DNA of 64,000 bases from an uncultured Polaribacter sp. (lineage in GTDB: Bacteria; Bacteroidota; Bacteroidia; Flavobacteriales; Flavobacteriaceae): NCBI RefSeq assembly GCF_947501385.1, contig NZ_CANMVP010000021.1, positions 23,246 through 87,245 of the forward strand. The letters are read 5' to 3'. Numbering within the stretch: position 1 is the first letter of the stretch; each line of letters begins with the position of its first letter. Of the stretch, positions 58,777 through 64,000 are shown one piece after another. A model generated the notes under the pieces. That model had not been told where the DNA came from. It was given only the letters and a program-made list of their open reading frames with translations, and made no database searches. The position numbers and the translations under genes are program-made.

Positions 58777-60333
58777 ATGAATTTTCAAGATAGTAGGGTA
58801 AACAAATTGTTATTAATTCTATGTATTTTTTTACTTAGTAATTATGTAAAAGCTCAAAATAGCTCTTTACAAATAGGTGATTCAGCGCCACCTTTAAAGG
58901 TTTTTCAATGGATAAAGGGAAGCCCTGTTTCTGAATTTAAAAAAGGACAAGTCTATGTGGTAGAATTTGGAGCTACCTGGTGTAAGCCCTGTGCAGTAGC
59001 TATCCCAAAATTGACAGCCTTGCAAAAAAAATACAAGAAAAAAGTTAAAGTGATTGGTCTTTTTGTGATGGAATATAATAATGAACCTAAAGACACTAAA
59101 AAACCAAAATATGTTGCAAGAGTGCAAAAGTATGTGACTAAAAAGGGTGATCAAATGGACTACAGTGTTGCCGTGGATGATCCAGAACGCACCATGGAAA
59201 ATACTTGGTTACGAGCCGAAGGAAAAAATGGAGTCCCATATACATTTATTGTTGATAAACAAGGGCGGATAGCCTGGATTGGTCGGGTAGAATCCAATGG
59301 AATAGAAAAAATATTGAATACTATATTAAGTAATGAGTATGATATCAATAAGTTTATTGCTTGGAGCAAAGAAGATAAAAAAAATCAAACTCCTTATAAT
59401 GACAAAAAACTGTTGTTAATAGAGGACAATGGCGGTAAGTCAACTAATTTTTTATACCGTTCTATTTTAACAAATTATAATGGAGATATACAAAAAGCAC
59501 CTCCATCATTTATAACTGGATATTATTTGGCACATCCAAAACCAGAGACAGAGATGTATCTGGGAAGAGTTCAGACAACAGGTACTTCGCTTCCGCATCT
59601 TTATAACATGGCTTATGGTGATACTCTTTGGAATATGCCTTCATACAGACTTCCAAAGAACCTTATGTTTCCAGATACTTTAAAGAATCCTTATACCAAA
59701 AGATCTTATGGTAAATATTGGTTGCAACCTATTGTGGAAGTTTCCAATAAGAAACCCTTTGATTGGTTTTATAACTCACCTATGAATAAATACAATTATA
59801 GCCTAAAGGTTCCGACAGAAAAAGGCACTGCCAAATTTTTACAAGATGCCATGCAAAGAGACCTAAAAACCTACTTCGGATATGATGTACGTGTAGAAAT
59901 TAGGGAAATGCCATGTTGGAAAATCACAGCGAATAAAAATGCTGTTCAAAATTTAAAATCAAAAACACCTGGGCAACCCTATCGTAGGTTAAAATGGGAT
60001 AATGAAAAAGGATATGACGTCAAAAATGCAGAAATTCAAGATTTTATATGGAAATTGGCTTCAAATTCAGGGCTTACAGATACACCCCGTCCTCCATCCA
60101 ATAAAACCGCAAATATACTTCCTTTTATTGATGCTACAGAATTTGATTTTCAAATAGATTATAGTATAAGTTTGGAAGAGAACGACAAGATAAATACTGC
60201 ATTAAACAAGCACGATTTTTCATTGGCAAAAGCTTTTTTAAATCGTTTGGGCTTGAATTTAGAGAGAAGCACTCATCCAATGAAGGTAGTGGTCATTAGA
60301 GACCCCATTACAAACCAAAAAACGGTACCATGA
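58777..60333 (+). CDS. TlpA-like thioredoxin-fold protein with long C-terminal extension
   Basis: VVEFGATWCKPCAVAIPKLTALQKKY (CxxC), NGVPYTFIVDKQGRIAWIGRVE; about 330 aa of additional unassigned sequence. Confidence 0.85.
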   Translation: MNFQDSRVNKLLLILCIFLLSNYVKAQNSSLQIGDSAPPLKVFQWIKGSPVSEFKKGQVYVVEFGATWCKPCAVAIPKLTALQKKYKKKVKVIGLFVMEYNNEPKDTKKPKYVARVQKYVTKKGDQMDYSVAVDDPERTMENTWLRAEGKNGVPYTFIVDKQGRIAWIGRVESNGIEKILNTILSNEYDINKFIAWSKEDKKNQTPYNDKKLLLIEDNGGKSTNFLYRSILTNYNGDIQKAPPSFITGYYLAHPKPETEMYLGRVQTTGTSLPHLYNMAYGDTLWNMPSYRLPKNLMFPDTLKNPYTKRSYGKYWLQPIVEVSNKKPFDWFYNSPMNKYNYSLKVPTEKGTAKFLQDAMQRDLKTYFGYDVRVEIREMPCWKITANKNAVQNLKSKTPGQPYRRLKWDNEKGYDVKNAEIQDFIWKLASNSGLTDTPRPPSNKTANILPFIDATEFDFQIDYSISLEENDKINTALNKHDFSLAKAFLNRLGLNLERSTHPMKVVVIRDPITNQKTVP

Positions 60334-60500: not shown

Positions 60501-60601
60501 GCCGTGTTCAATCCCCTATGGGTAGCCCAATTGGGGTTAAAACGGTTATAACCCCAGTATTATAAGGGGTTATGGCCTAAAGGTGGGGGGTTACGGCTCA
60601 A

Positions 60602-60922
60602 TTGTTGGGCACAACAGCCGCTCCGTTGGAGCCAACGGCTGCTCCGTTGGGGTCCGCGGCTGGTCCGTTGGGGTTCACGGCTGGTCCGTTGGGGCTCACG
60701 GGCGCTCCGTTGGGCACAACAGTTGGTTCGTTGGAGTCCACGGCTGTTCCGTTGGGGGCAACGCTTGCTCCGTTGGAGCCCACGGTTGGTTCGTTGGAGT
60801 CCACGGCCGCTCCGTTGGGGCTCACGGGCGCTCTGTTGGGGGCAACGCTTGTTCCGTTGGGAGCAACGGTTGGTTTGTTGAAGCCACTGCCCGTTTTGTT
60901 GGAGGTTATGGTGACTCCGTAT
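60602..60922. repeat. GC-rich 21-bp tandem repeat array (about 15 units, hairpin-forming), with degenerate half-units upstream
   Basis: Units every 21 bp from 60602, 60623, 60644 to 60896; consensus CCGTTGGnGnnCACGGnnGnT; unit at 60623 contains CCGTTGG-AG-CCAACGG. Confidence 0.95.
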
Positions 60923-60975
60923 TAGCCCACCATAAAAAAAAGTAGTAGATACCTAAACGTAAAAATAAGTTTATT

Positions 60976-61590
60976 ATGACACGAGATTTTATTCCTAGAA
61001 CAGAAGGTCAGCTTATCATATGGTTGACAAATTTTAAAGACAAAATAGCTACCTTGGGGGCAGACCTGGGGTTAAGTCCAGAAGCCCTTACCGCTATTAC
61101 CGCAGATTGTGAGGCCTTAATTGCCACCATTACTGCGGTAGAAACCGCCAGAACAGACCTGGCCACAGCCGTAACGGCCAAAGACAACACCAAAAAGAGT
61201 ACCATTAGTACCCTGCGTACCGAAATTGCCCGTATTAAAACCAACCCCAACTATACCGAGGCCATTGGTAAAGACCTGAGTATTGTAGGCGAAACCACCC
61301 CACAAGATTTAAATAATGCTAAACCTACCCTTAGCGCAGAGGCGTTTCCGGGCTATGTACGTATTAAATTTATCAAAGGCGGTTTTAGTGGCGTTAACAT
61401 CTATTCCCGTATCAAGGGCTCTGTTGGGTGGAGTTTTTTATCTCGAGATACTAGCAGTCCCTATGAAGACCAACGTCCGTTAGAAAACCCCAATGTTCCA
61501 GAAACCCGAGAATATATGGCCATCGGCCTAAAAGGCGATGATGAAATTGGGCAGGAAAGTGATGTGGTGGTGGTTGTTTTTTGGGGGTAG
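60976..61590 (+). CDS. Hypothetical protein: N-terminal helical/coiled-coil region plus C-terminal beta (Fn3-like) region
   Basis: Clean ATG ORF; IATLGADLGLSPEALTAITADCEALIATITAVETARTDLATAV helix; EAFPGYVRIKFIKGGFSGVNIYSRIKGS beta-rich part. Confidence 0.75.
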   Translation: MTRDFIPRTEGQLIIWLTNFKDKIATLGADLGLSPEALTAITADCEALIATITAVETARTDLATAVTAKDNTKKSTISTLRTEIARIKTNPNYTEAIGKDLSIVGETTPQDLNNAKPTLSAEAFPGYVRIKFIKGGFSGVNIYSRIKGSVGWSFLSRDTSSPYEDQRPLENPNVPETREYMAIGLKGDDEIGQESDVVVVVFWG

Positions 61591-61671
61591 TTTTAAAGTT
61601 TGAAGTTAAAAGTTAGAAGTACAAAGTATAGATGAGTACAAAAGATAAAATCAAATCTAAAATCATCGTGT

Positions 61672-62882: not shown

Positions 62883-63266
62883 ATGCCAGTAAAGATTAAA
62901 GCTCTGGAACGTGGAGAACCAGGTGTAGCAGGTGGTGGTATCAAAAAATGGTATGCTACTACAGCCAAACAAGACGAGCGCAATATTGAAGCACTTACCA
63001 CAAGTATTGAAAAAATAAGCACCGTTAGTGGTGCAGACATCCGTGCCGTACTCTATGCCCTCGTTGATGTGTGTATAGAAGAATTAAGTTATGGCAATGT
63101 GGTTCGTATAGGAGAACTTGGAAACCTACGTGTAGGTGTAAGCAGCGAAGGTGTTGCTACACAAGAAGAAGTCACCACAGCACTGATTAAAAAAGCCAGA
63201 ATACTCTTTGCACCAGGATCACGACTTAAAGTGATGCGAGATACTTTAACCTATCAAAAAGTATAA
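62883..63266 (+). CDS. HU-family (Bacteroidetes-type) DNA-binding protein
   Basis: SGADIRAVLYALVDVCIEELSYGNVVRIGELGNLRVGVSSEGVAT...FAPGSRLKVMRD. Confidence 0.8.
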   Translation: MPVKIKALERGEPGVAGGGIKKWYATTAKQDERNIEALTTSIEKISTVSGADIRAVLYALVDVCIEELSYGNVVRIGELGNLRVGVSSEGVATQEEVTTALIKKARILFAPGSRLKVMRDTLTYQKV

Positions 63267-63341: not shown

Positions 63342-63451
63342 GTAAGCACAGCGCAAGAAAAGTGTAGTTACAAAAGAACACTTTTGTAGTTACAAAAAGA
63401 ACATTTTGTAGTTACAAATCAACTTTTTTGTAGGCACAGTTTTTAGCCCCC
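63342..63451. repeat. 22-bp-period repeat (five units, outer two degenerate)
   Basis: GTAAGCACA / GTAGTTACAAAA / GTAGTTACAAAA / GTAGTTACAAAT / GTAGGCACA starting at 63342, 63364, 63386, 63408, 63430. Confidence 0.8.
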
Positions 63452-63815: not shown

Positions 63816-63920
63816 GCAATCTCATATCGTGTTAACGTTAGCTTTTTAGAGATCTCTCCACAAGGTCACTGAATCAAGCCTGCCTTGTCGGCAGACAGGT
63901 TCAGCACAGGCGAGATGACA
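63816..63920. repeat. Dispersed intergenic repeat, second copy, interrupted by nested hairpins
   Basis: AATCTCATATCGTGTTAACGTTAGCTTTTTAGAGATCTCTCCACAAGGTC-[insert]-GAGATGACA. Confidence 0.75.
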
Positions 63921-64000
63921 GGAAGTTGGAAGTTAGAAGTTAAAAGTGCAAAGTATGAATATGAGTACAAAAGATAAAATAATACGGAAATCAAAATGTC

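Follow-up and report, generated by a model that had tools for sequence, protein, structure and literature searches.

The iterons of plasmid origins are direct repeats of ~17-22 bp that are bound by Rep proteins, while centromeres of the parS/parC type, with their ParR/ParB-like proteins, combine an array beside the adaptor gene with multiple sites and autoregulation. The locus described here lies in the window, i.e. the whole 64-kb stretch of Polaribacter DNA that was analysed, and comprises a tandem array of 21-bp units followed by the gene of an uncharacterised protein. It resembles iterons in that tandem direct repeats of approximately two helical turns lie beside the gene of the presumed binder, with a sequence that is specific to the system. 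The cassette is, however, apparently chromosomal and lacks both a Rep protein (no Pfam match) and plasmid homologs, while near-identical paralogs carry unrelated arrays. As in parS/parC systems, the array adjoins the gene of the linked protein and offers multiple sites, but a ParA/ParM-like partner is not a recurring neighbour and the protein consists of a helical hairpin and an FN3-like domain.

The CRISPR and TIGR systems also combine an array beside a linked protein family with a sequence that is private to each locus. Unlike in CRISPR, the 21-bp units abut without unique spacers and no cas-like partner was found, while TIGR-Tas differs in that no Nop-domain match was obtained in Pfam scans, the period is 21 and there are no edge and loop repeats with variable spacers, many arrays being near-identical 21-mers throughout (e.g. 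L374 and L332). The REP/BIME-RAYT elements likewise pair a protein family with short palindromic repeats. Here, by contrast, there is no Y1 transposase, the partner protein has no transposase match, a second neighbour does not recur, and the units are private to their locus rather than dispersed in the genome. The GTTGGAA-type microsatellites of the genus share the GTTGG motif and a period divisible by 7 with the array, but the arrays show no 7-bp sub-period and the genus genomes that bear the microsatellites lack the partner gene. No published description of the array-gene pairing was found in the open-access literature (most subscription journals and bioRxiv preprints lie outside this scope).

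The array in the Polaribacter window

The array and its partner gene occupy just over one kilobase of the window (Table 1). Tandem Repeats Finder (TRF) assigns the core array a period of 21 with 12.7 copies, besides periods of 42 and 63, and its self-match at lag 21 is 0.694, compared to 0.285 +/- 0.025 in shuffled sequences (z = 16). Positions 60548-60929 form the sole segment with a 21/42/63 periodicity in the whole window. The initial annotation, made from the sequence alone, had described approximately 15 consecutive units (60602, 60623 and so on to 60896) with an invariant GTTG, near-invariant C14, G19 and T21, and variable positions 8-12 and 16-20. The unit positions were verified, and the counts over the 15 core units agree with this pattern (GTTG and T21: 15/15; G19 and G7: 14/15; C14: 13/15). 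The unit table and the small hairpins proposed for most units are also correct, and the within-unit dyad exceeds a null in which the 21 columns are permuted (p = 0.005-0.01). The inverted repeat reported upstream of the core is present, and the array is, as had been noted, richer in G+C (0.58-0.65) than its surroundings (0.25-0.42 in the 2.5 kb before the array).

Table 1. Coordinates of the array and partner gene features in the window
Feature	Position	Strand	Remarks
Degenerate, AT-richer leading units	60548..60601	.	Same 21-bp register as core; include inverted repeat ATAACCCC/GGGGTTAT at 60548-60573
Core array, 15 contiguous 21-bp units	60602..60916	.	Consensus YYGTTGGRGNYMACGGYYGNT; dyad GTTGG..CCAAC in many units
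AT-rich spacer, array to start codon	60917..60975	+	
Partner gene, 204-aa uncharacterised protein (MTRDFIPR...)	60976..61590	+	N-terminal helical hairpin and C-terminal FN3-like beta-sandwich
Helical N-terminal domain, residues 1-90	60976..61245	+	Divergence tracks array divergence among homologs
FN3-like domain, residues 118-202	61327..61581	+	Foldseek to FN3 domains; modest model confidence

The initial annotation also pointed to three open frames with heptad repeats. A role of the array as coding sequence for heptapeptide repeats (SVGxxGx, PLGxTxx or PNGxxVx) is scarcely credible: 21 is divisible by 3 and the three frames are indeed open in the window, but this is what the G+C content of the array would allow and is not evidence of coding. 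Stops occur in all six frames in 9/44 equivalent arrays, several arrays contain 1-bp slips, no peptide is common to different loci, and there is no family match. A heptad-repeat protein gene was rejected, as no single frame is conserved open across the members.

DNA searches, in which few candidates were scored per genome, returned no convincing match to the array sequence elsewhere in its own genome, and no match in 201 genomes of the family, while the matches in 168 genomes of the genus were confined to coding sequence or to GTTGGAA-type microsatellites with 7-bp units. Long 7-bp microsatellites (GTTGGAA, GTTGGCT, GTTGGTT) recur in many of the genus genomes (e.g. G321:C11:15921 and G000:C23:1710). 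There was nothing near the gathering score for the array in Rfam, and no match at the gathering score among the CRISPR-DR models. Collection-wide repeat-pattern scans yielded, among the matches listed, mostly unrelated coding repeats, with the exception of one locus (L167, see below). The initial annotation had named the lack of any comparable array in related genomes as grounds for abandoning its proposal. Such a lack is observed for the sequence, but not for the architecture, as homologs of the downstream gene have arrays before them, albeit with unrelated sequences. Elements of this kind escape sequence-similarity searches because only their period and position are conserved.

The partner protein and its distribution

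The downstream gene was absent from the initial annotation. Its product belongs to no family in Pfam, NCBIfam, PHROG or PADLOC, a PDB sequence search gave no convincing match, and no RHH or HTH match was obtained in any library searched. A structure model from the single sequence was too poor for its fold matches to be meaningful, while a two-row alignment gave an AlphaFold2 model (pLDDT 72) with a helical hairpin at residues 10-89 and a sandwich of ~8 strands at residues 118-202. On this model, Foldseek relates the sandwich to FN3 domains (target TM 0.55-0.69; probability 1.0), and a weak FN3 sequence HMM match was obtained in a two-domain relative. As modelled, the C-terminal part of the partner protein has the FN3 fold. 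Domains of the FN3 type commonly bind proteins or sugars. Neither a DNA-binding fold nor a relative in the PDB was recognised for the helical domain.

The partner gene occurs in no other of 201 genomes of the family and no other of 166 genomes of the genus, while 23 further genomes of the class, and also genomes from elsewhere in the phylum, carry homologs. The simplest reading is that the window genome acquired the gene horizontally. No family protein was found in plasmid, phage and viral collections. An intrinsic-terminator-like stem, as judged by eye, is commonly found 3′ of the family gene.

Association of 21-bp arrays with the gene family

Among the first 29 homolog loci, TRF detected 21-bp tandem arrays upstream of the gene again and again. 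When lags of 9 to 63 were compared for genes preceded by 250 bp or more of available sequence, a few of which lie in loci that are near-duplicates between genomes, the strongest upstream lag was 21, 42 or 63 in 54/62 family genes, compared to 5/59 downstream. Under a stricter criterion, applied to 20 flanking regions of 13-20 kb, arrays accompany 16/22 family genes and 1/213 other genes (Fisher p = 5e-19), and it is near certain that the association is real. All arrays were found beside one protein superfamily, other genes having been examined for 21-bp arrays in these flanks only. Beyond generic neighbours, no recurrent neighbour family specific to the cassette was observed in the flanks of the homolog loci.

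The arrays of the homolog loci have a median of 12.8 units, range in G+C from 0.22 to 0.68 and are separated from the ATG by a median of 76 bp (IQR: 55-100). Their sequences are unrelated between loci, with units private to each. Self-match averages 0.64, 0.68 and 0.63 at lags of 21, 42 and 63, respectively, and is not raised at 7, 10, 11 or 14; as the arrays were picked by the former three lags, only the contrast with the other lags is meaningful.

A different gene, encoding a 315-aa protein (L394:16762-17706), is also preceded by an array. Relatives of this protein contain a duplicated helical domain (hhalign between the halves: 96%; E: 1.6e-9), which is weakly related to that of the window family (hhalign: 37-42%). 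The top upstream lag is 21, 42 or 63 in 24/28 of these two-domain relatives, while this is the case downstream, mostly weakly, in 11/26. The same stretch harbours, after uvrB, an intergenic array with a 21-bp period (L394:7195-7537; lag-21 match: 0.59) without a family gene behind it, which may be an orphan left behind after loss of its gene.

A contig of the Phycisphaerae (L167) surfaced from a blind scan for the 21-bp pattern, and an HMM search subsequently placed a family protein just downstream of its array. The family is carried by 46/248 Phycisphaerae genomes, where arrays are found upstream of 15/26 genes and downstream of 3/26. The association therefore recurs in at least two phyla, Bacteroidota and Planctomycetota. 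Intact family genes in the Phycisphaerae are accompanied by many copies that are truncated or contain stops, which suggests frequent duplication and decay.

Inverted repeats, covariation and the probable role of the array

The best reading of these comparisons, to which we give a probability of about 0.45, is that the array is locus-specific and bound by the helical domain of the adjacent protein. The cassette would consist of two parts, a locus-private array of 21-bp units and a gene ~50-100 bp downstream. The encoded protein most likely binds the DNA of its own array through the helical domain, probably in dimeric form. As 21 bp correspond to two turns of the DNA helix, all sites would lie on one helix face, and the bound protein may regulate its own gene or build a multi-protein assembly at the array. 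Each paralog keeps a different array, such that cassettes in one genome would not cross-talk. Binding, dimerisation, autoregulation and assembly are inferences from what the comparisons show: arrays accompany the gene family in two phyla, their period is strictly 21 bp, dyads are in excess and favour neither strand, and unit similarity covaries with the helical domain. Among the three options in the initial annotation, a protein-binding array is thus the best supported, because the dyads are without strand bias, the 21-bp period is strict and array similarity tracks the helical domain; a structured RNA finds no strand-specific support and the heptad protein none.

Inverted repeats were assessed as a five-pair dyad within the 21-bp period, by comparison against the same array with its 21 columns permuted. 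Dyads are significant (p < 0.05) in 13/44 arrays (Fisher 9e-8), while a mirror-repeat control gave 3/44 (p = 0.75). The corresponding values are 6/8 arrays in the Phycisphaerae (p = 3e-7) and 3/24 in the two-domain relatives (p = 0.03). The dyad is a real tendency and not a universal rule, being significant in under half of the arrays. It is stronger with one-domain than with two-domain proteins (p = 0.008), as would be expected if homodimers recognise palindromic sites, and fused pairs asymmetric ones. There is no strand preference (G-U: 42; A-C: 51), folding z-scores are -2.0 for the sense and -2.1 for the antisense strand, and the sense strand is lower in 18/44 arrays. The excess of inverted repeats is thus equal on both strands, which favours a dyad acting at the DNA rather than the RNA level.

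This bears on the main rival explanation, in which the array is transcribed as a 5′ leader and its repeated hairpins function at the RNA level, in the control of translation or stability or as a protein scaffold, and in which structure alone matters while the sequence drifts. At some loci, only 12-34 bp separate the array from the ATG, too little for a promoter, and the promoter-like motif TAnnTTTG is more frequent than expected upstream of the arrays (11 vs. 4.25) and not in the spacer (1 vs. 2.4). A promoter between array and gene was not generally observed among the loci, with one clear case (L313). Given the short gaps and the upstream motif, many arrays are probably transcribed, whatever their role. 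The excess of inverted repeats would also suit a leader RNA, but the sense strand is not preferred, and pure structure would fail to explain the strict 21-bp period or the covariation with the helical domain; we consider this explanation unlikely. Assignment to a structured RNA family is not supported, there being neither an Rfam match nor a strand bias of G-U over A-C.

Covariation was determined from array-unit similarity, corrected for composition and taken at the best rotation and strand, among homolog pairs with >35% identity. Unit similarity is correlated with N-terminal identity given C-terminal identity in three gene sets (partial rho: 0.26, 0.30 and 0.34; Mantel p: 0.004, 0.014 and 0.09, respectively), while the reverse, C-terminal given N-terminal identity, is not significant. 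N-terminal identity still tracks the units given the spacer DNA (0.26, p 0.006; 0.38, p 0.004). Linkage is insufficient as an explanation, because the spacer DNA between array and open reading frame shows no significant relation to array similarity (rho: 0.11 and -0.08). The p-values of the covariation are modest, and when all pairs are taken, without the 0.35 identity cutoff, neither of the two large sets shows a correlation.

Covariation with the helical domain also argues against a phased DNA element that is not sequence-specific, acting through curvature, cruciform extrusion or as a nucleoid-protein platform, and read by a general protein such as HU. The two helical turns of the unit and the free variation of sequence and G+C (0.22-0.68) would fit such an element, as would the HU-HIG gene 1.3 kb downstream of the array in the window and the 92%-identical paralogs with unrelated arrays. 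A sub-period of 10 or 11 bp is, however, absent, and the HU neighbour does not recur at other loci, making this explanation rather improbable.

The paralogs in question (L346 and L348) share 92% protein identity and similar flanks on both sides, their substitutions lying within the first ~145 residues while the C-terminal part is identical. With 25% of four-fold sites differing between them, array sequence turns over faster than these sites. This pair speaks against cognate array and protein, as it would imply a large change in specificity for few substitutions. The fast turnover, together with the patchy distribution, the multi-copy paralogs and the broken copies in the Phycisphaerae, could instead mean that the repeats are the functionless mutational product of a site that is prone to slippage and adjoins a mobile or duplicated gene. 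We regard this as improbable, as the same period is found at a fixed position beside one protein family in two phyla, compared to 1/213 other genes, and neither the dyad excess nor the covariation with the helical domain would be accounted for.

If binding of the array by the helical domain is nevertheless correct, the loci may, tentatively, represent an unrecognised class of chromosomal cassette, present in at least the Bacteroidota and Planctomycetota, in which a helical/FN3 protein reads a fast-evolving, private and often palindromic 21-bp array, with many orthogonal pairs per genome. A repeat that appeared isolated is now tied to a protein family without a name or domain model, and the same 21-bp period is found with unrelated sequences in distant bacteria. 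Should the protein read its array, single genomes, in which up to 19 copies were detected, would contain numerous orthogonal protein-DNA pairs of natural origin, and their quick change of specificity would offer a ready system for studying the evolution of DNA recognition.

Additional genes and repeats can be observed around the cassette in the window. Upstream, a TlpA-like thioredoxin domain fused to DUF3738 is encoded at 58777-60333, directly after a SusC/SusD-like pair; genes of this kind in the window support its assignment to the Bacteroidota. The HU-HIG DNA-binding protein (PF18291; E: 1.8e-23) is encoded at 62883-63266, 1.3 kb downstream of the cassette, and its gene is followed at 63363-63433 by three copies of a 22-bp unit, TGTAGTTACAAAAGAACATTT. 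Dispersed repeats of the AAAGTTAGAAGTACAAAGTAT type (88% copies at C21:87168 and C14:1723) and repeats of the form GTCATTCCGAG...GAGATGACA are located around the cassette, at 61595-61642 and 63920-63980, and on other contigs of the genome.
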